Shown here: in pieces, positions 9,653 through 29,738 of the stretch | Position numbering within the stretch: the first letter of the stretch is position 1 | How the letters are laid out: every line of letters starts with the position of its first letter | Virus record (IMG/VR): IMGVR_UViG_3300002835_000784 | Coordinates: 1-29,827 of that record | DNA length: 29,827 nucleotides | Source of the DNA: a virus | Direction: 5' to 3' (one strand) | Position numbers and translations under genes: made by a program | The notes under the pieces: generated by a model | What the model was told of the DNA's origin: nothing | Seen by the model: the letters and a program-made list of their open reading frames with translations, nothing else | Databases searched by the model: none

Positions 9653-10354
9653 ATGGCTATTCAAGTACAATTAAGACGCGGAACAACTTCGCAAAACAAC
9701 TCATTTACTGGAGCTGTTGGTGAAGTCACTGTGGACACTGATCTTGATACTTTGCGTGTACATGATGGAAGCACTGCGGGGGGATTTTCAATAATTAATA
9801 CGTCTGCTACTCAGACCATGAGTAACAAGACGCTGACTTCGCCAACTGTTTCTGGAACTATTACAATCACAGGCAACGCGGCTATAGCGATTGCCAATGG
9901 CGGCGCTAATGCCACTGGCAATATAGGCAGTGCAACTTCGTATTTTAATCGTGTGTTTGCTACTTCAACCTCTGCTTTGTATTCTGACTTAGCAGAAATG
10001 TATGAAGCAGACGCCTACTACGAGCCAGGTACTGTGGTTAGTTTTGGCGGAGAAAAGCAAATTACAAAAAGTTTGGTTGTAAATGACAAGCGTGTAGCTG
10101 GTGTGGTCAGTACAAATCCAAGTTATCTTATGAATTCAGCCTGTCCTGGAGATTTTGCTACGCCAGTGGGATTGACTGGACTTGTGCCCACAAAGGTAGT
10201 TGGCAATATTCGCAAAGGCGACATGGTGGTAAGCAATGGTGATGGCACAGCTAGAGCAGAAGAAAATCCACAAGTAGGCAGTGTTATAGGCAAGTCACTG
10301 GAAGATTTTAACGGGACCAGCGGAATCATCAATATAGTAATTGGTAGATTCTAA
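9653..10354 (+). CDS. Short tail fibre with C-terminal processing/chaperone-like domain
   Basis: 233 residues. Residues 1-44 are the common phage fibre start IQVQLRRGTT...GAVGEVTVDTDLDTLRVHDG, and a GN-type repeat stretch follows. From about residue 110 (YSDLAEMYEADAYYEPGTVV...VAGVVSTNPSYLMNS) it carries a module common at fibre C-termini, loosely like the Peptidase_G2 intramolecular-chaperone group. I cannot place a cleavage residue. It has its own late promoter. Its last 60 bp overlap the 3' end of the opposing Nudix gene, so no terminator separates the two. Confidence 0.75.
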   Translation: MAIQVQLRRGTTSQNNSFTGAVGEVTVDTDLDTLRVHDGSTAGGFSIINTSATQTMSNKTLTSPTVSGTITITGNAAIAIANGGANATGNIGSATSYFNRVFATSTSALYSDLAEMYEADAYYEPGTVVSFGGEKQITKSLVVNDKRVAGVVSTNPSYLMNSACPGDFATPVGLTGLVPTKVVGNIRKGDMVVSNGDGTARAEENPQVGSVIGKSLEDFNGTSGIINIVIGRF

Positions 10355-10777
10355 TCTCTTTTCAAGTAAGTTAATTTTGGACTGTATGGCGTCAATGTTC
10401 ACGGTGTTCCACAGTCCAGGATGTAAAGGCCTAGGCCAAGTTCCAGACTCAATCCAAGCGTAACCACAGTGTTCTTGATTTAATTTTGGAGTAAACTCTC
10501 TGTCTACCTGACAGAAAAAAGTGTGATATGCAAATTGTTGATCAGTGCTTGTAAATTTTTCAATTGGCAAGAATTTAGCATTCACAAAATCCAACCCTAG
10601 TTCTTCTTTACACTCACGGTGAATAGCGTCTAGTAAACTTTCGTTGAATTCTACTTTCCCACCTGCTAATCCCCAGGAACCGGGGTGTTTGGTGTCATTG
10701 CGTATTAGATAAAGATATCTATGTGTGCTAATTGAATAAAACCAAACTCCTACTGCGTTTAAAGAGTTAGACTCCAT
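10295..10777 (-). CDS. Nudix hydrolase
   Basis: 160 residues. The Nudix box is complete at residues 40-62: G40 x5 E46 x7 R54-E55-C-x-E58-E59-x-G61-L62, the metal and diphosphate binding site. The family hydrolyses nucleoside diphosphates linked to another group; the substrate here is unknown (nucleotide clean-up, ADP-ribose-type compounds or RNA caps are options). The start is an ATG with AGGCGG upstream, lying inside the 3' end of gp15 (19-bp overlap), so it is the last gene of the gp14-gp15 operon. The C-terminal 20 residues are encoded opposite the short fibre gene. Confidence 0.9.
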   Translation of the reverse strand: MESNSLNAVGVWFYSISTHRYLYLIRNDTKHPGSWGLAGGKVEFNESLLDAIHRECKEELGLDFVNAKFLPIEKFTSTDQQFAYHTFFCQVDREFTPKLNQEHCGYAWIESGTWPRPLHPGLWNTVNIDAIQSKINLLEKRLESTNYYIDDSAGPVKIFQ

Positions 10778-15613: not shown

Positions 15614-16132
15614 ATGGACGTAATGATTGACATTGAAGGTTTGGCCACTGGCCCTGATGCTACTATTTTAACCATAGCAGCTCAGTGTTTTGATCCGTTC
15701 TCTAGAGGGTATTATCGTCAACAATACTATGCTCGTGTCACACTGGAAAGTCAAGAACACAGAGCAATAGAGCAGGGTACCATTGATTGGTGGGCAACTC
15801 AAACTCAAGCACAAATTGAAGCATTTAATCCAGAAAACAGGATTCCCTTACAGCAAGCTCTTCAGGAATTACACAAACTTTGCTGGCAATGCAATCGCGT
15901 GTGGATGAACGGTCCTACCTACGATGCTAATATCCTAGAGCACGCCTACAAAAGCTATAACATGCCCTTGCCTTGGCAGTACTTTAAGATACGTGATGCT
16001 CGTACAGTGTACGGATTGGTTCCCGGTCTAAACAAGTACCCAGCGAGTCACCATGCGCTAGAAGACTGTCGTCGACAAATTGATTTGTTGCACGACGCTT
16101 TAGAATACCTAAAAATCAAAGAACTTGTATGA
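15614..16132 (+). CDS. DEDDh 3'-5' exonuclease (Rv2179c/DexA-like)
   Basis: 172 residues. The catalytic acids are visible: D6 and E8 in MIDIEG, D104 in GPTYDANIL, and H146...D151 in HHALEDCR, giving the DEDDh set. TIDWW at 57-60 is also typical of the group that includes T4 DexA (TIEWW) and the Rv2179c-like 3'-5' exoribonucleases. It removes nucleotides from 3' ends; DNA or RNA preference cannot be read from sequence. The stop overlaps the start of the kinase gene (ATGA), so the two are co-translated from the sigma70 promoter. M4 is an alternative start. Confidence 0.85.
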   Translation: MDVMIDIEGLATGPDATILTIAAQCFDPFSRGYYRQQYYARVTLESQEHRAIEQGTIDWWATQTQAQIEAFNPENRIPLQQALQELHKLCWQCNRVWMNGPTYDANILEHAYKSYNMPLPWQYFKIRDARTVYGLVPGLNKYPASHHALEDCRRQIDLLHDALEYLKIKELV

Positions 16133-16677
16133 TCTTACCTAAACTACTGATTATTGGCCATGCTCGACATGGCAAAGACACTGTGTGTGAAATCCTGTGT
16201 GAAGAATTTGACTATTCTTTTAGATCAAGCTCTGATTTTTGTGCAGAAAAATTTATCTATGATGAATTGAAGTCAAAGTATGGGTACACAAGTTACAAAC
16301 AGTGCTTTGAGGACAGGCACAATCATAGATCAAAATGGTACGACATGATTCATGAATATTGTCGCGATGACTTTGCAAAACTGGGTAGGGAAATTTTTGC
16401 AGAAAACACAATATACTGCGGGCTCAGAAACAAAAGTGAATTTCATGCCATGCGTAACACTGGTGTTTTTGACTATGCAATTTGGGTTGACAGAAGCGAT
16501 CATCTACCCCAAGAAGCTCGATCCAGTATGAATTTAGAAATTTGGATGGCAGACTATGTTATTGACAACAATGGCACACTTGATGATCTAAGACGTAATA
16601 CTGTAGAGCTTATGAAATGCTTGTTAACTACACGTCCGGCTCCAAATCACCCCTACGCCACGTTAAATCAGATCTAG
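16129..16677 (+). CDS. Deoxynucleoside monophosphate kinase-like P-loop protein (gp1-like)
   Basis: 182 residues (T4 gp1 is 241). The P-loop is GHARHGKDT at residues 10-18. The next part, EEFDYSFRSSSDFCAEKFIYDELKSKYGY, and the later LR..SEF.A....FDYAIWVDRS agree with the phage dNMP kinase fold, which feeds DNA synthesis by making dNDPs. It overlaps the exonuclease by ATGA. The last 50 bp overlap the 3' end of the HNH-like gene on the other strand. A general nucleotide kinase of other specificity is possible. Confidence 0.75.
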   Translation: MILPKLLIIGHARHGKDTVCEILCEEFDYSFRSSSDFCAEKFIYDELKSKYGYTSYKQCFEDRHNHRSKWYDMIHEYCRDDFAKLGREIFAENTIYCGLRNKSEFHAMRNTGVFDYAIWVDRSDHLPQEARSSMNLEIWMADYVIDNNGTLDDLRRNTVELMKCLLTTRPAPNHPYATLNQI

Positions 16678-22141: not shown

Positions 22142-22501
22142 ATGGGCTCAGTCAATAACACTAACACAAGTTTAGATTTAAACGTTAGAATCTTTGATCA
22201 ATTCTACAAGTATGATTTTGCTGTGCCGGCCAATGAGTACGATCAAATCTACAGTTTCTTTGCAAGCAAATTTGAAAGCGAACAAGCAGCTCTCTACTTT
22301 GCCACTAGTTTATTTCAAATCAGTGTCACAACAGATATACCTGTGCAAGAACTTTTTCAAGGGCTGATTGATCAAGGATCGTTTGAACTATCTTTGACCA
22401 TGGCTTATTATATCAATGGAATAAGAAGCAGATCTACCTTGCTTGGTGTTAACCAAGTAACAAAACCTAATTTTTATGCGGCTAGAAATGTTATTCAATG
22501 A
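22142..22501 (+). CDS. Conserved unknown between tube and gp4
   Basis: 119 residues, starting one base after the previous stop and overlapping gp4 by ATGA. No known domain is recognised. The sequence is mostly helical with an aromatic patch (DQFYKYDFAVPANEYDQIYSFFASKF) and a C-terminal AYYINGIRSRSTLLG segment. Tight coupling on both sides suggests a virion-assembly role, possibly a small structural or chaperone-like protein. No membrane segment or catalytic motif is visible. Confidence 0.65.
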   Translation: MGSVNNTNTSLDLNVRIFDQFYKYDFAVPANEYDQIYSFFASKFESEQAALYFATSLFQISVTTDIPVQELFQGLIDQGSFELSLTMAYYINGIRSRSTLLGVNQVTKPNFYAARNVIQ

Positions 22502-22932
22502 AAAAGTTTGCCCAGGGCATTTACAGTGTCAAAAATTCTGACAAATACGTAGGTAAAAATCCTCCTAGATTTAGAAGTTCATGGGAATGGGCATTCATGA
22601 ACTTCTGTGACAACAATGATCATATTTTGCAATGGGCCAGTGAAGCCATTTCTATTCCCTATAGACATCCTCTTACTGGTAAGCAAACAGTGTACGTACC
22701 AGACTTTTTCATAACCTATCGTGGTAGAGATAACATGGTACACGCTGAACTGATAGAAATCAAACCAAAAAAACAAAGCCTGGTTGAAAGCAAGGCAACC
22801 AGTAGAGACCGAGCTGTGGTAGCTGTGAACTATGCCAAGTGGGACGCAGCCACCAAATGGGCAAGGCGCAATGGTTGTATGTTTAGAGTTATCACCGAAG
22901 ATCAAATATTTCATCAGGGCGGCAAAAAATAG
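22498..22932 (+). CDS. 4: Head completion protein gp4 (TnsA-like nuclease fold)
   Basis: 144 residues, matching T4 gp4 (150) along its length: SVKNSDKYVGKNPPRFRSSWEW here against PKNISKYRGDPKKITYRSNWEK in T4. The nuclease-like residues are kept: E30 in SSWEW, D69 in VPDFF and E87-x-K89 in IEIKPK. gp4 is needed to finish filled heads before tails attach; the TnsA-type residues suggest it trims or binds the packaged DNA end. Overlaps the gene before by ATGA. Confidence 0.88.
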   Translation: MKKFAQGIYSVKNSDKYVGKNPPRFRSSWEWAFMNFCDNNDHILQWASEAISIPYRHPLTGKQTVYVPDFFITYRGRDNMVHAELIEIKPKKQSLVESKATSRDRAVVAVNYAKWDAATKWARRNGCMFRVITEDQIFHQGGKK

Positions 22933-23448: not shown

Positions 23449-24048
23449 ATGAAACTTTTTCGTGATTATCTAGCCGAAAGTCAAAAAACATACAACTACC
23501 GCATCAAAATTGCGGGTGATGTTTCTCCAGAGTTCATGCGCGGACTCAAGGAAAAAATGGCGCAGTTTGAACCAGTGAAAATTGGCGAGTTAAAGTCAAC
23601 GCCAGTTCAAAAAGTTCCAACTGATTTTCCTAATTTTGAAAACGAGCGCATCAACTTTTTTGACGTTGAATTTCGCTATCCAGCTATTCATCCACAAATT
23701 ACCAACATGGCTCAAATGTTAGGACTAGATCCTAATAGATTGATCATGCACACAATTGGTTATGATCTGGGCATGGATGAAGAAATGGAAGGCATCAAAG
23801 AAAAGAATCAAAATCTGTTGGCAGACACTGACTATCCAAGCCCAGACAAGCAACAAAAAGCATTGTCAAAAGACTATGCTGCTGACAGCCATGATCATGA
23901 AGTGGTTAGAAATCGTTGGAAATCTAATTTTAAAGTGGCGGGGGGAAAAACAAAACCTGCCGAAACCACAAATGATCTTCCAATGGGTGACAAAAGTCCA
24001 ATTGGTGGTACAAACAAGATACCATCTGTAAAATCAAATGCGAGATAA
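23449..24048 (+). CDS. Candidate head-internal protein with CTS-like leader
   Basis: 199 residues, no recognised enzymatic domain. The start MKLFRDYLAES closely resembles the capsid-targeting leader of T4 internal protein III (MKTYQEFIAEA). In T4 the prohead protease gp21 cuts after a (L/I)-x-E; here L8-A-E10 fits. The next part (about 15-85) looks like a small alpha/beta domain (YRIKIAGDVSPEFM..LKEKM, INFFDVEFRYPAIHPQI), followed by a disordered acidic and Lys-rich tail from about residue 115. Late promoter directly upstream. I infer packaging inside the head; its activity is unknown. Confidence 0.65.
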   Translation: MKLFRDYLAESQKTYNYRIKIAGDVSPEFMRGLKEKMAQFEPVKIGELKSTPVQKVPTDFPNFENERINFFDVEFRYPAIHPQITNMAQMLGLDPNRLIMHTIGYDLGMDEEMEGIKEKNQNLLADTDYPSPDKQQKALSKDYAADSHDHEVVRNRWKSNFKVAGGKTKPAETTNDLPMGDKSPIGGTNKIPSVKSNAR

Positions 24049-24052
24049 TACC

Positions 24053-26194
24053 ATGAATCAGAATTCAAACATGTATGAAATACTTGGCAAGCTAAACAGC
24101 ATTTCTGCACCGCAGACAAAGTCAGAGCCAAAACAAAATCTCCAGGAGTCTGTGCAAACTGCACAATCACAATCTCCTTATGATAGATTGAGTGAAAAAT
24201 ATCAACGTTATGTTGACCGTGTGTCTTCAGGAGAGCAACTCAATGAAAAGTACATGGGCTTTAAAAAATTAGAAAAGTCACTGGCCGACAGAGGCGATGT
24301 AAAAGATCCAGCAGCGGTGGCGGCCAGCATTGGTCGCAAAAAATATGGTAAAGAAAAATTTCAAAAAGCAGCGGCCGCTGGTAAAAAAATGGGCGAAGGG
24401 GTAGTAGCTCAAGGTTCTATTAAATCAACAGACAGTGGTACAGAATACAAAGCCGAACCAGGTCATCGTGTCAAAGCCACAATTCAACCACCTGGTTCAC
24501 CTAATGCAGGCAAAACAGATGTTGAGTTTGTAAAAGCCAAGCCGCAAGGACAAGCAGCACAACCTGCTGACAAACAAGAAAAGCCTGTGGATGAAAGCGG
24601 ATTACAAGCTTACTTAGGTAAAAAGAAATATGGTGCAGCAGGCATGAAGGCACTGCAACAAGCCGGCCGCGACGGTGCCAGCAAAGAAAAAATGGCCAAG
24701 ATCCGTGCTCGTCATGACAAGATGGACGAAGCAGATGTAGAAGAAGGAAACTTTTTTGCACACAATGTGTTAAAGGCCAAGGCAGCAAACAAAAAGAAAG
24801 CTGATCTAGACGGTGACGGTGATTTAGAAAACGTAAGAGAGGCCAGCAAGCCAGATTACATTGATCTTGACAAAGACGGTAACAAAAAAGAAACAATGAA
24901 AAAAGCAGCGGCTGATAAAAAACGTCATGCCATGGACGAAGGTTGGGACGATATGATTAAAGATGTAGAGCGTCGTCGTACATCTCCCAAGGTTGGCAGC
25001 AGCTATCAAGGACACAAAGGCGAAATTACAAAAACAGCTTCAGGTGTTCGTCATACACGTCGTTATGATCCAGAAACAGGTGAAACTGGCGGCGGTGAAG
25101 AACCAGCAGAAAAGCGCGGTCGTGGCCGTCCAAAGAAAGGCGACGGTCCTAGACAAGAAAGAGTAACAGCAAAAAGTCGCAAAACAGACAGAACTGCACA
25201 TGGACAAACTGGTTTTAAAGCAGGCAACAAACGCAGTAAAGAAGTTGAAGAAGCCATGGAGACACTGCGTCGCTGCGGTTACAATGTAGACAAACTAGAA
25301 GAAAAAGCAGTGAGCACAGCGCAACAAAAATTCATGGGTATGGCACATGCTATGCAAAAAGGCGAGAAGATTCCTGGCGCCAGCAAGGAATTGAAAAAAG
25401 TAGCCAAGACCATGAAAAAAGGCGACGTTGAAGACTTTGCCAAGACCAAGCACAAGGGTTTACCAAAGCACGTTAAACAAGGCAAACCTGTTGATGAAGA
25501 AATGACCGATGTACTACAGGCAGAAAAACCATATCGTGATCCCAAAAGTGGTAAGATGGTAACACCACCAAAGGGTGCTACACAGCCGCCAGCTGATAGT
25601 AAGTTTGCACCCGGTGATCCAAGAAATGCTAAACCTGCTAAACCAGCAAAGAAAGAGCAATCAGTTAAAGAAACTGACACAAATCCAACTGATGCCGCTA
25701 GTAATAACTCCAAAGGTGGTATGACATTTGGCAAAGGAATCTATGATAGCTTTAATCGTGCCATTGAAGACATGATTGCTGAATCATCACAGCTTAATGA
25801 AAGCATTAGCATAAACACCAGTATCAATTCTGAAGGCAACAGAAACATCACTATCAATGCAACCGACGAAGATGCTGACAAGCTAGCACACATACTTAAA
25901 CTAGCAGGTTTATCGTCACAGCAAGACGATCACAGTGAATCATGTCCTAGTTGCGGCATGGGCGGTTGTGGTTGCGATCATATTGACGAAGCTGATGTAG
26001 AAGTTAGCAACAATGCGCCAGATTACCCAGAAAACATGGGACAAGAAGATGACACAGAGTTCATGACTCAAACCATTAGTGGTGGACTGAACAAGCCCAA
26101 ACGTGATCAAACCACGTTGCCACACATTGCAGTTAAGTCAGTTCAGAGTGAAGGCATTGAACGTAGTCTGTGGAACTTGTACAAAAAGGTTTAA
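24053..26194 (+). CDS. Large Lys/Glu-rich virion protein with AT-hook and Asp-rich loops; possible scaffold or polyprotein
   Basis: 713 residues from the ATG at 24053, 4 bases after the previous stop; an ATG at 24038 and one at 24071 are alternatives, and none has a clear ribosome-binding site. I recognise no family function. Visible features: two (I/L)G(R/K)KKYG segments (about 93-100 and 188-195); two DxDxDG loops (D251-D257 and D271-E280), like EF-hand or dockerin calcium loops; an AT-hook RGRP core at 357-360 in a Lys/Arg-rich stretch; an NITINATDEDADKLAHILKLAG segment near 600; a CPSCGMGGCGC cluster (C631, C634, C639, C641); and the end LWNLYKKV. Ten hydrophobic-x-E-(A/S/G) sites resemble prohead-protease sites. 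Likely disordered, DNA-associated and head-internal; a scaffold precursor is the main guess. Confidence 0.7.
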   Translation: MNQNSNMYEILGKLNSISAPQTKSEPKQNLQESVQTAQSQSPYDRLSEKYQRYVDRVSSGEQLNEKYMGFKKLEKSLADRGDVKDPAAVAASIGRKKYGKEKFQKAAAAGKKMGEGVVAQGSIKSTDSGTEYKAEPGHRVKATIQPPGSPNAGKTDVEFVKAKPQGQAAQPADKQEKPVDESGLQAYLGKKKYGAAGMKALQQAGRDGASKEKMAKIRARHDKMDEADVEEGNFFAHNVLKAKAANKKKADLDGDGDLENVREASKPDYIDLDKDGNKKETMKKAAADKKRHAMDEGWDDMIKDVERRRTSPKVGSSYQGHKGEITKTASGVRHTRRYDPETGETGGGEEPAEKRGRGRPKKGDGPRQERVTAKSRKTDRTAHGQTGFKAGNKRSKEVEEAMETLRRCGYNVDKLEEKAVSTAQQKFMGMAHAMQKGEKIPGASKELKKVAKTMKKGDVEDFAKTKHKGLPKHVKQGKPVDEEMTDVLQAEKPYRDPKSGKMVTPPKGATQPPADSKFAPGDPRNAKPAKPAKKEQSVKETDTNPTDAASNNSKGGMTFGKGIYDSFNRAIEDMIAESSQLNESISINTSINSEGNRNITINATDEDADKLAHILKLAGLSSQQDDHSESCPSCGMGGCGCDHIDEADVEVSNNAPDYPENMGQEDDTEFMTQTISGGLNKPKRDQTTLPHIAVKSVQSEGIERSLWNLYKKV

Positions 26195-26197
26195 CCA

Positions 26198-28333
26198 ATG
26201 AAAACATTTAGAGATTATTTAAATCAAATTGATAGCACAGCAGGACCCAAAGAAGGTGACGCATTGGATCTAGTGCTCAACGAAGAACTGGTTGTGGAAA
26301 CCGATATAGTTGATCGTGATGGAAACAATGTTTTCATTGGCATGGACAGAATGTCTTATCAAATGCTGGAAGAAGCAGGCATGCTTGAACAAACAGCACC
26401 TGCGACATGGAAGCAAATTTATGATCTTAACAAAGCCACAATTGGTGCTGACCCTAATAAAATTAAGCCAGGACAAGTTTTACAACTACCAGGCGGTGGC
26501 AGTTACACTGTGAAAAAAGGCGATAATCTAACCAAAATTGCACAAGGCGGTGCAGCAGCACCAGCGGCAGCGACAGCGGCTGAACCCGCAGCAGCACCAG
26601 CTGCAACAGCACCAAAAGCCACAGATGCTGCGTCACTAAAAGCGGCACAAGATGCCGCTGCTGGTACAGCAACAGCACCGGCAACAGCAACAGCAGCAGC
26701 ACCAGCTGCCGCAGATGGTACCACACAAGATATTGAAAGATTAAAAAACCTTGCAGGAGCCGATGCCGGCGATCAGCAAACCAGCAACTATACTGGTCAG
26801 GTGCAAAAATCGCCTGAACCGGCACCTGCTGCATCTGCAGATACACTTGGTCAAAGACAACCAGGTGGCCAAGGAAGTTATGCAGCCTCCGCTACAGGTG
26901 CCGAGGGCACTGCTCAGGGGCAAGCTGCTCAACCAGCAGCACCAGCAGCACCAGCAGCCACCGGAACCGCCAATCCATGGACGGGCACAGACCCTGCCAA
27001 GGCAGCAGCATGGGACAAGCTTAGTCCAGAAGATCAAAAGTGGATTGGCAAAGCAGATCCAACTGACAAATTTATTTTAGCTCGTGCTCCTAGCAAAGGA
27101 GGCTTCCTAGGATCAATTGGGCTAGGGAAAAAATCCGCAGGACCTACTGGAAATGTCAACAATCAAACTAGTGGATATGCACAAGCAGGTCAAGCAGCTC
27201 AACCTGACTCAGGTCCAGGTCAAACCTATGCAGTGTCTACACCAGACGTAGGACAACCTGAACCTTTAAAAGAAGCCGCAACTCAAGATGAAAACATGCT
27301 GTTTGAAGAATTCAACCGTATGTTAGAGTTAGCTGGGCTAGAATCAAAAAAAAAAGATATAGCTGAACAAGGTGGGTTGGCCAAAGCTGTTGGAGCTGTA
27401 AAATCAGCTTTCAAAGGCACACCTAACCCTCCAGCTGCTGCCACACCTGCACCTTCATCAAGTACCATCATAAATCCAGCCACAAACCAACCTTTTAGCA
27501 CTGCCGCGACGCAAACTGCCAAAGCAGGTGTAGCTGATATGCCATCTGGATTGCCAGCTGAGTATACAAATGTATGGAATAGATTAACTGATGCACAAAA
27601 ACAAGCGGTTGAACTTGAGGGCATCAAAAACCCTGGCGATCCTGGCGAGGCCATGACCAAGGTCTTGAACAATATACTTGAAAAAAATGTTGAACTTGCT
27701 ACAGTGGCACAACAAGCGGAAATTCAACAGGCCAGAGAACTGGCAAAAGGTCCAGTAAAGAAATACATACAGACAAATCCCTTGAAAACGATCACTGCTA
27801 TTGGAGGAACTGGGGCCGGTTTGTATTTTGCCAACAAGCACTACGAAAAAACACAAGCCGACATTAGATCTTTAGCACAAGAAATTTCACAAAAACTCAA
27901 ACAAAACTACACAGCCGAAGAAGTAAGAGATTGGATAGTTAATAACAAAATTGCAGATCTAGAAACCGCTGATCAAGCCACGCGACAAGCCATGGAGATA
28001 TTAAAAAAGGTCCAACCCTTGAAACCCTATGCACCACCTGCGCCCGCACCTAACCCAGCACCTAAACCAATGGAACTTACCCCGCAACAAAAACGCGAAA
28101 TGGGAGCGCAAGATGCACCGCCCAGCACAGTAAAAGAAAATCTAAGATATTTCACTCGTAATCCCAATGATGGGCAGATTGTGGAAGTATTTTTAAACAG
28201 TGCCTTGAATCGTGGCAGTGCCAACAATGTTGATCAACGACACACAGGCGGGTTACAAAGAAATGGTCAAGACACCTGGCGCTTAGACGCTTGGAGTGAA
28301 AAACCAATAAGTAAATTAGTGAAAGGTATATAA
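26198..28333 (+). CDS. LysM-containing virion protein with CTS-like leader
   Basis: 711 residues. Leader MKTFRDYLNQ, with a possible gp21-type site at L27-N-E29. Residues 71-98 (WKQIYDLNKATIGADPNKIKPGQVLQLP) are the second half of a LysM domain and residues 103-116 (YTVKKGDNLTKIAQ) the first half, so the halves are in swapped order. LysM binds peptidoglycan glycans. About 117-260 is Ala/Pro/Gln/Thr-rich linker. An A10 tract encodes K384-K386, and a second folded part follows from about 445, with a short hydrophobic stretch at 531-545 and a conserved-looking C-terminus (QDTWRLDAWSEKP). Role inferred as an injected or wall-contacting internal protein; no lytic active site is visible. Confidence 0.7.
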   Translation: MKTFRDYLNQIDSTAGPKEGDALDLVLNEELVVETDIVDRDGNNVFIGMDRMSYQMLEEAGMLEQTAPATWKQIYDLNKATIGADPNKIKPGQVLQLPGGGSYTVKKGDNLTKIAQGGAAAPAAATAAEPAAAPAATAPKATDAASLKAAQDAAAGTATAPATATAAAPAAADGTTQDIERLKNLAGADAGDQQTSNYTGQVQKSPEPAPAASADTLGQRQPGGQGSYAASATGAEGTAQGQAAQPAAPAAPAATGTANPWTGTDPAKAAAWDKLSPEDQKWIGKADPTDKFILARAPSKGGFLGSIGLGKKSAGPTGNVNNQTSGYAQAGQAAQPDSGPGQTYAVSTPDVGQPEPLKEAATQDENMLFEEFNRMLELAGLESKKKDIAEQGGLAKAVGAVKSAFKGTPNPPAAATPAPSSSTIINPATNQPFSTAATQTAKAGVADMPSGLPAEYTNVWNRLTDAQKQAVELEGIKNPGDPGEAMTKVLNNILEKNVELATVAQQAEIQQARELAKGPVKKYIQTNPLKTITAIGGTGAGLYFANKHYEKTQADIRSLAQEISQKLKQNYTAEEVRDWIVNNKIADLETADQATRQAMEILKKVQPLKPYAPPAPAPNPAPKPMELTPQQKREMGAQDAPPSTVKENLRYFTRNPNDGQIVEVFLNSALNRGSANNVDQRHTGGLQRNGQDTWRLDAWSEKPISKLVKGI

Positions 28334-28335
28334 TA

Positions 28336-28647
28336 ATGGCAAGTCAAGCAAACGTTTATTCCGGTGCAGTGGCTAATGTAAACTGGAAAACAGACAAGGT
28401 ACGTATTAACACAGGTGTCAACAGTGTTACTTTTCAGGTCAATGTAGCCAACATTGCCAATGCTGGTGTTACAGCTAACACTATCTACAGCAACGCCATA
28501 GTTATTCCAGCTAACAGCAAATACGATGCATTTGTAGGTGTTGGTAATTTTGTAACCATAGAAGGCGGCAATGCTACAATTCAGGAACTTGGAACAGCAA
28601 GCTCAGGCACTGAAAGCGTGATGTCGTTGAACAATTACATAGCATGA
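28336..28647 (+). CDS. Small beta-rich structural-type protein
   Basis: 103 residues, no recognised family. The sequence is Val/Asn/Thr-rich with strand-like blocks (DKVRINTGVNSVTFQVNVAN, NAIVIPANSKYDAFVGVGNF, VTIEGGNATIQELG). It lacks the CTS-like leader of its neighbours. It could be a head decoration or fibre-related subunit; this is a guess from composition and place. Confidence 0.6.
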   Translation: MASQANVYSGAVANVNWKTDKVRINTGVNSVTFQVNVANIANAGVTANTIYSNAIVIPANSKYDAFVGVGNFVTIEGGNATIQELGTASSGTESVMSLNNYIA

Positions 28648-28648
28648 C

Positions 28649-29017
28649 ATGAGAGCATTTGAAATCATTACCGAGAGGCGGGCTAAAATTACGCAGAGGC
28701 AGCAACAAGCCACTCGCGGGCTAAACAAATTTTGGGATCCAACTCGCACTGACAGCGATTACACTTTGAATCGTGTGATGATGGCAGCAGCAGCCACAGA
28801 TGGTACTTTTGTGCCTAAAATGGATGATCATAGCTGGGCTGGCAACGATAGAACAGCACATCCATATACAAAACAAGAGCAAGAAATTATGAAAAAAGCC
28901 TATCAAGCTGCTGGGGCAGACTACAAAGATCTAAATCATGGTAACATGAACAGTGAAGAAGTGGATTCAGTGAACACCACTAGTCCTGTCAAGGCATTCA
29001 AGGGCTACACCAGATGA
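28649..29017 (+). CDS. Small candidate internal protein with CTS-like leader and FKGY tail (A)
   Basis: 122 residues, starting one base after the previous stop. Leader MRAFEIITER with a possible (I)-T-E cleavage site at residue 9. The body is helical (FWDPTRTDSDYTLNRVMMAAAATDG, then QEIMKKAYQAAGADYKDL), and the end is TSPVKAFKGYTR. The same kind of leader and the same C-terminal signature return in the gene two places downstream. Overlaps the next gene by ATGA. Function unknown. Confidence 0.65.
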   Translation: MRAFEIITERRAKITQRQQQATRGLNKFWDPTRTDSDYTLNRVMMAAAATDGTFVPKMDDHSWAGNDRTAHPYTKQEQEIMKKAYQAAGADYKDLNHGNMNSEEVDSVNTTSPVKAFKGYTR

Positions 29018-29352
29018 GATTTAGAGAAATCGTGCGCGAATATGATGCAGCCGCGGCAGCAAATCAAATGCAACAGGCGTTTGATAAAACTAGATTACGA
29101 CAACAGTTTTACGGGCGTACTCCGGCTGACCTAAAAGGTGATCCTGAAGAAATAGGCGACACCTGGGATGATTACAAGCAGCATATAAAAACTTTTGGGC
29201 AAAGACCCAAGACCAAACCACAACCTGCTGAACCTGAAAACACACAGGCAGTGCCATTGGATGTTGAAAAATTAAAAAAACCCAAAATGGATTTCAAACA
29301 AAAATATCCTGATCCATGGGATACTGAACCAAACGTAGACACAGTTGGATAA
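29014..29352 (+). CDS. Small candidate internal protein with CTS-like leader
   Basis: 112 residues, ATGA overlap with the gene before. Starts MRFREIVREYD, a weaker fit to the leader type (V-R-E at 7-9). The remainder is charged and Pro/Lys-rich (DTWDDYKQHIKTFGQRP, KPKMDFKQKYPDPWD), and probably disordered. No FKGY ending. Function unknown. Confidence 0.6.
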   Translation: MRFREIVREYDAAAAANQMQQAFDKTRLRQQFYGRTPADLKGDPEEIGDTWDDYKQHIKTFGQRPKTKPQPAEPENTQAVPLDVEKLKKPKMDFKQKYPDPWDTEPNVDTVG

Positions 29353-29354
29353 TC

Positions 29355-29738
29355 ATGCGAGCCCGAGAATTTATCACTGAACAAAGAATGAAGCTGTCGC
29401 AAGACATTGCTGGTCCTCTGCGTCATACATTTATATTACCAGGCATACGCAACAACGATGCATACCGTGCGTTGAGATTTAGTATAGCTTTGGCAAGAGC
29501 AAGAGCAGACGTAGCTGGTTATTCCAAAGACTGGGATCCTTTTGAAGAAGAAAGTGCGTTTGGACAAAACACTTTGATTCTTGGATTCAACGATTCAGTT
29601 GATGAAGTCATAGACCAAGCATTGGCCATGACTAATACCCCTGGTGGCAAAGAACTAATTGGCAGTAAAAACAGTGTAGAACCGCCAGAGGTACAAAAAA
29701 CAAGTCCGGTCCGGGCTTTTAAAGGTTATCCAAGGTAG
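29355..29738 (+). CDS. Small candidate internal protein with CTS-like leader and FKGY tail (B)
   Basis: 127 residues. Leader MRAREFITEQ with a possible I-T-E site at 7-9. The body (NNDAYRALRFSIALARARAD, FGQNTLILGFNDSVDEVIDQ) is compact and alpha/beta-like and not similar to protein A, yet the C-terminus TSPVRAFKGYPR is nearly the same. Starts 2 bases after the previous stop. Function unknown. Confidence 0.65.
   Translation: MRAREFITEQRMKLSQDIAGPLRHTFILPGIRNNDAYRALRFSIALARARADVAGYSKDWDPFEEESAFGQNTLILGFNDSVDEVIDQALAMTNTPGGKELIGSKNSVEPPEVQKTSPVRAFKGYPR

Follow-up and report, generated by a model that had tools for sequence, protein, structure and literature searches.

The window analyzed here is the complete 29,827-base IMG/VR virus record IMGVR_UViG_3300002835_000784, presumably a viral genome fragment, whose source is an uncultured giant T4-like phage. 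Toward its right end, five open reading frames (ORFs), named by the position of their first base (23449, 26198, 28649, 29014, and 29355), begin with similar short peptides, called leaders in this text, followed by the bodies of the proteins. A first-pass annotation had listed these five ORFs with their coordinates and N termini, and all five were present as it described (Table 1).

Table 1. Leader genes, neighboring features of the window, and Pfam domains on leader-tagged bodies of related records (handles beginning with G or L)
Feature	Position	Strand	Remark
10-residue leader MKLFRDYLAE	23449..23478	+	First leader gene
199-aa leader-bearing protein	23449..24048	+	Ferredoxin-like body; disordered C-terminal tail with KSPI
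718-aa protein without leader	24038..26194	+	Between leader genes; DUF3008 domain; 13 candidate gp21 sites
10-residue leader MKTFRDYLNQ	26198..26227	+	Q replaces E at the predicted cut position
711-aa leader-bearing protein	26198..28333	+	Partial LysM; Ala/Pro-rich linkers
9-residue leader MRAFEIITE	28649..28675	+	
122-aa leader-bearing protein	28649..29017	+	Paralogue of 29355; C-terminal tail TSPVKAFKGYTR
9-residue leader MRFREIVRE	29014..29040	+	
112-aa leader-bearing protein	29014..29352	+	Orphan
9-residue leader MRAREFITE	29355..29381	+	
127-aa leader-bearing protein	29355..29738	+	Paralogue of 28649; C-terminal tail TSPVRAFKGYPR
[TK]SP[VI] C-terminal tails	23989-24048, 28970-29017, 29691-29738		Common to the 23449 and 28649/29355 families
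gp4-like head completion/closure protein	22498..22932	+	phrog_218, E 1e-39; 5' of the leader cluster
Tail sheath	17072		In the window
Proteins in tail-tube position	20395, 21028		
NUDIX hydrolase	10295-10777	-	Amid tail genes
Rv2179c-like 3'-5' exoribonuclease	15614-16132	+	Amid tail genes
Weak dNMP kinase match	16129-16677	+	Amid tail genes
ADPrib_exo_Tox	L285:6643-7242		Tagged body
Zeta_toxin/AAA	L344		Tagged body
GNAT	G001, G002		Tagged bodies
Glyco_hydro_19	L207		Tagged body
M23 and LysM	L309		Tagged body
CTP_transf_like	L320		Tagged body
DnaJ	L364		Tagged body

The pattern M[KR]x(1-3)[DE][YFILVW][LIVM]x[EQ] was fitted by 5 of the 28 called genes of the window, whereas shuffling of residues 2 to 14 within each protein gave an expectation of 0.011 and no shuffle gave five; the leader is therefore over-represented relative to random N termini, as the first-pass annotation had supposed. 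Four long relatives (G001, G002, G003, and G006) contained 20 fitting genes among 1,140, against 0.44 expected, some of them far from this locus; G003 by itself had one match, which is not significant. Across the related loci, 148 of 2,155 called genes fitted the pattern (some duplicated between loci), compared with 8 of 11,000 internal methionines. In a control with 236 ORFs of T4, the pattern selected only the internal proteins IPII and IPIII, and a looser version added gp24, Alt, and Inh, the last annotated as an inhibitor of gp21. Since the strict pattern misses T4 IPI and many 23449 homologues, these counts are lower bounds. Overall, the common N terminus is real and well above chance.

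As seen in Table 1, the leaders come in two lengths. The single 10-residue formula of the first-pass annotation holds for 23449 and 26198 (MKxFxxYLxE), but the other three leaders have a 9-residue form, M-R-x-x-E-[FI]-[IV]-x-E, which we write MRAxEF[ILV]xE and which includes no aromatic residue at position 4. Homologues of 23449 were filtered for start codons giving an aromatic or aliphatic residue at position 7, an aliphatic residue at position 8, and E or Q at position 10, with position 4 left unconstrained. The 77 leader-positive proteins among 85 distinct homologues had invariant K2, Y7, L8, and E10, with F4 in 71 of the 77 and positions 3, 5, 6, and 9 variable; F, Y, or L at position 4 together with Y7 was found in 77/85 of these homologues, and 26198 fits this combination too. 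With start codons chosen to allow a leader, MRAxEF[ILV]xE was present in 40 of 41 distinct homologues of the 28649 body, and the leader was found in all 38 distinct homologues of the 29355 body. The column entropy in these two sets rose from 0 at E9 to 2.4 to 3.3 bits at residue 10 (3.3 bits for 28649), as a conserved unit ending at E9 would predict. In the predicted structures (AlphaFold2), the leader of 23449 is a short separate helix outside the body fold, with a predicted local distance difference test (pLDDT) score of 66, and residues 1 to 10 of 29355 also lie outside the fold (pLDDT 53).

The conserved leader residues are spelled by several synonymous codons (L8, for example, by six), which places the constraint at the protein level. 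A nucleic acid feature, such as a translation start, a promoter, or an RNA element, might make the starts alike, and the leaders do sit exactly at the start codons of genes beside structural genes, but the mixed codons speak against it, and the window shows no excess of the T4-type late promoter TATAAATA (34 occurrences versus 36 expected, with one mismatch allowed). We consider such a feature extremely improbable. For the 28649/29355 family, the boundary at E9 and the mixed codons together argue for selection on a short peptide, rather than on the DNA or the body.

The bodies had been described as unrelated, which is correct for only part of the set. Proteins 28649 and 29355 are paralogous, with 30% identity over their full length (E 1e-9) and a common C terminus, TSPV[KR]AFKGY[PT]R, leaving four body types rather than five. 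Tandem copies of this family were also found in relatives. Such a pair is what would be expected if the leaders had been inherited by gene duplication inside one protein family, with no need for a sorting role. Nevertheless, we regard this as very unlikely, given that hhalign aligned residues 1 to 11 of 29014 with the 28649/29355 family and nothing else, that the 23449 family has no meaningful similarity to that family, that conservation in the 28649/29355 family stops at the final E, and that the tag occurs on many other bodies (see below). The fetched loci contained no homologue of the 29014 body, and neither Pfam nor PHROG gave a match for it. A fold search with the 29355 model gave one uncharacterized phage protein as its sole match, and tblastn of 29355 and two relatives against phages gave none.

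To cover bodies of any kind, IMG/VR was scanned with back-translated DNA patterns of both leaders, without body information. Among the matches listed, 225 were analyzed, and 203 of these (90%) lay at start-like positions with ORFs of at least 60 aa, compared with 30% in the scrambled control. Tight ORF starts accounted for 76% (9-residue form) and 80% (10-residue form) of the matches listed and for 10% with a scrambled pattern; the scrambled 9- and 10-residue patterns matched 83 and 14 stretches in all, respectively. This blind scan holds some chance matches, such as a Gp13-like major capsid protein (L330) and a protein that, judging by its sequence, is small and zinc-ribbon-like and was counted as chance (L350). 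The leader was found on at least 62 body clusters. At least three body families bear either form, namely, DUF6267, an apparent metalloprotease (a label that rests on an HExxH stretch in a related G001 protein), and a DUF6321-like family. The two forms therefore look interchangeable, and this suggests that the 9-residue form may be equivalent to the 10-residue form.

Short leaders of this kind are known from T4, where mutagenesis of IPIII assigned targeting mainly to residues 4 and 7 and processing to residues 8 and 10, with Asp10 permitting targeting and blocking processing (PMC9026906). The N-terminal propeptides of gp24, Alt, and the internal proteins are removed by gp21 (PMC5694885). The leaders of the window resemble the capsid-targeting sequences of IPI, IPII, and IPIII in being short N-terminal peptides on differing bodies, in residues 4, 7, 8, and 10 of the 10-residue form, in the [LI]xE end, and, in long relatives, in the company of an S77 protease and the 20-67-68-21-22-23 cassette. 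They differ in the 9-residue MRAxEF form without the aromatic residue 4, in the many more protein families involved, in the C-terminal SPV tail on some of them, and in belonging to jumbo, mostly uncultured phages. When aligned on its final E, the 9-residue form has counterparts of T4 positions 7, 8, and 10. The propeptides of gp24 (MAKINELLRE) and Alt (MELITELFDE) are likewise short cut leaders of head proteins, and the 9-residue form has MRINDII/MKINEII variants similar to that of gp24, although the body proteins are others and the spacing differs. Jumbo phages of the phiKZ type, such as SPN3US with its ejection and inner body proteins, also have many head-internal proteins processed by the prohead protease (PMC5694885), but several propeptides there exceed 100 residues, unlike the T4-like 9 to 10 residues seen here. 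No Pfam or PHROG match of the bodies named an IPI, IPII, or IPIII family, in searches that did not set them directly against the bodies of T4.

The first-pass annotation had also proposed looking for a gp21 homologue outside the window. A search of 36 related records detected an S77 protease (PF03420) in 20, comprising 8 of the first 16 (including PA5oct) and 12 of 20 from the blind scan, and none of the nine records longer than 180 kb, among them PA5oct, lacked it. In the long relatives, the S77 protease belongs to a T4 head cassette (20-67-68-21-22-23), in the order portal, gp67-like, gp68-like, gp21, gp22, and gp23 in G001, G003, and G006, and with the segment from gp68-like to gp23 reversed in G002. 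In four relatives and PA5oct, the major capsid proteins have K/R-[YHF]-L-x-E-[NSA] just upstream of the mature-like part, the same type of site as at the end of the leaders. In the window, four of the five leaders have the gp21-type [LI]xE end (LAE, ITE, VRE, and ITE, with V for L/I in one), and 26198, with LNQ, does not. The protein in the gp67 position of PA5oct (EST35_0150) starts with MKINDIITE and is annotated as detected by electrospray ionization tandem mass spectrometry (ESI-MS/MS). Another PA5oct protein, EST35_0238, has the leader (M/V)KIKDILVE.

We therefore read the leader as a T4-type capsid-targeting propeptide, combining targeting with cleavage, with a probability of about 0.82. 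The capsid-targeting tag proposed by the first-pass annotation is thus strongly supported by sequence, through the IPIII residues, the [ILV]xE end, the many bodies, and the S77 protease of relatives, except that 26198 lacks the E. Import into the head is well supported, and we infer docking, cutting, head location, and ejection. During prohead assembly, the leader, in either the 10-residue IP-type or the 9-residue MRAxEF form, which would be interchangeable, would attach the protein to the core of the scaffold. The S77 prohead protease, the gp21 homologue, would then cut behind the last E of [LIV]-x-E, so that the body is set free inside the DNA-filled head and, if small, could exit with the DNA.

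Several observations weigh against this interpretation. The 9-residue form does not have the aromatic residue at T4 position 4. The protease lies outside the 29.8-kb record; a 177-kb relative (G004) and several shorter records had no protease match, and, for records longer than about 140 kb, having the protease cannot be fully separated from being a large T4-like phage. For PA5oct, a blind leader profile was at best weakly related to detection in virions: its score did not set the detected proteins apart as a whole (rank test, p 0.6), a Fisher test gave p 0.03 at one threshold and was not significant at others, and the top two matches are virion detected. The leader genes adjoin tail and neck genes, and a location in the tail or neck remains formally conceivable for their products. 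Conservation in the 23449 family extends beyond the leader end, and distant homologues without E10 start with MKPYIQYLLD (G002) and MKSFRDYYDA (PA5oct), so cutting is possibly not universal in that family. An uncut peptide that docks proteins to the core, portal, or neck, where they would remain as structural parts of the head or neck, would accommodate the D or A at position 10 of these homologues, the absence of a conservation break after the 23449 leader, and the Q of 26198, in line with the T4 Asp10 mutant. However, E is invariant in the 77 leader-positive 23449 homologues (the filter required E or Q) and in the leader-positive 28649 and 29355 sets, and the same motif ends the major capsid protein propeptide, making an uncut peptide unlikely as a general account.

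For 26198 itself, targeting without cutting at the leader end is predicted because Q sits at the cut site, and the protein may thus be targeted and left uncut there. Its leader-bearing relatives in the ARYWSCRAW cluster carry E at this position. The body resembles a single leader-bearing family, and that only weakly and locally (31% identity, E 6e-4); tblastn against phages returned LysM matches only.

Protein 23449 matched phrog_14802 (head and packaging, virion structural protein; E 5e-6), and its model has a ferredoxin-like topology with weak S6-like Foldseek matches. Its PA5oct counterpart, EST35_0202, is annotated with ESI-MS/MS and found in virions. Since this ferredoxin-like protein is widely conserved and its counterpart was detected in virions by mass spectrometry, 23449 may be structural. 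In the Agrobacterium phage Atu_ph07 (L195:8001-8120), the 23449 homologue can start with MKTLQDYLTE, 29 codons upstream of the annotated start, and the annotation has probably clipped the leader off. The next gene, 24038, has 13 candidate gp21 sites, defined as [LIVMFY]xE followed by a small residue, versus 4.6 in shuffles (p about 0.0002). Genes following 23449 homologues averaged 1.9 times as many such sites as their shuffles, compared with 1.18 times for unrelated control proteins. These sites suggest that 24038 is probably a prohead core protein cut at many positions.

The C-terminal tails of Table 1 were also examined across five genomes (1,542 proteins), where [TKR]SP[VIM] ended eight proteins versus 1.5 expected, all in families of the 23449 or 28649/29355 type. 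A related ending, VN-[TK]-[KR]-[ST]P, closes several core proteins of the gp68-like kind. The tail is possibly a second sorting tag; as few independent families carry it, we treat it as a lead rather than a result.

As for the surroundings, the leader genes follow a gp15-like sheath stabilizer. Homologues of the gp4-like 22498 are labeled head completion protein in several phage records; it has hundreds of IMG/VR relatives, and its best cultured matches include the jumbo phages PA5oct, Phosso, GAP32, and SCTP-2. Megablast of the whole window against phages gave no match. Because the record stops soon past the last leader gene, the cluster may continue beyond it.

The first-pass annotation had further described the set as head-internal, possibly injected effectors. 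This part is plausible, because tagged bodies in relatives include an ADP-ribosyltransferase-type domain, GNAT acetyltransferases, and a zeta-toxin-like kinase; for the window proteins themselves it is conjecture, as 23449 may be structural, 26198 has a partial LysM, and no function is assigned to 28649/29355 and 29014. With 23449 set aside, ejection of the window's leader proteins as effectors is a tentative proposal, somewhat short of an even chance. Of 30 blind-scan proteins compared with Pfam, most matched none of its domains. At G001:C1:266855-270148, four genes in a row have MRxxEF leaders and differing bodies; one of these is a double GNAT, and another weakly resembles RegB. A twin-arginine-like stretch directly follows the leader at G002:C1:297068-297964 (RRGFLKG) and L207:2992-3609 (RRGFLGA), the latter with Glyco_hydro_19, and head cargo of this type may be exported after entry.

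While this kind of leader is already known from T4, the 9-residue spelling is new, and the cargo range is wide. Among the T4 proteins, Alt is a packaged ADP-ribosyltransferase. IPI inhibits one of the host's restriction systems, and IPIII works in the cytoplasm of the infected cell, enabling infection of some strains (PMC9391042). It is conceivable, though we hold it with less than even confidence, that T4-like giant phages share a portable code for head import, spelled in two interchangeable ways and joined on some cargo by a C-terminal [TKR]SP[VIM] tail, and use it to load into the head a large, fast-changing set of enzymes (ADP-ribosyltransferase-type proteins, acetyltransferases, kinases, cell wall hydrolases, and chaperone-like proteins) that would be delivered along with the DNA. 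Reading the tag is probably a way to learn which proteins such phages carry inside their particles. If this is true, the idea can be examined in the cultured phages PA5oct and Atu_ph07, and a ten-residue motif would yield, straight from sequence, lists of candidate proteins that are internal to the heads of uncultured T4-like phages and possibly injected. Given the activities of T4 IPI and IPIII against host restriction and in the host cytoplasm, such lists would be lists of candidate antidefense and takeover proteins.

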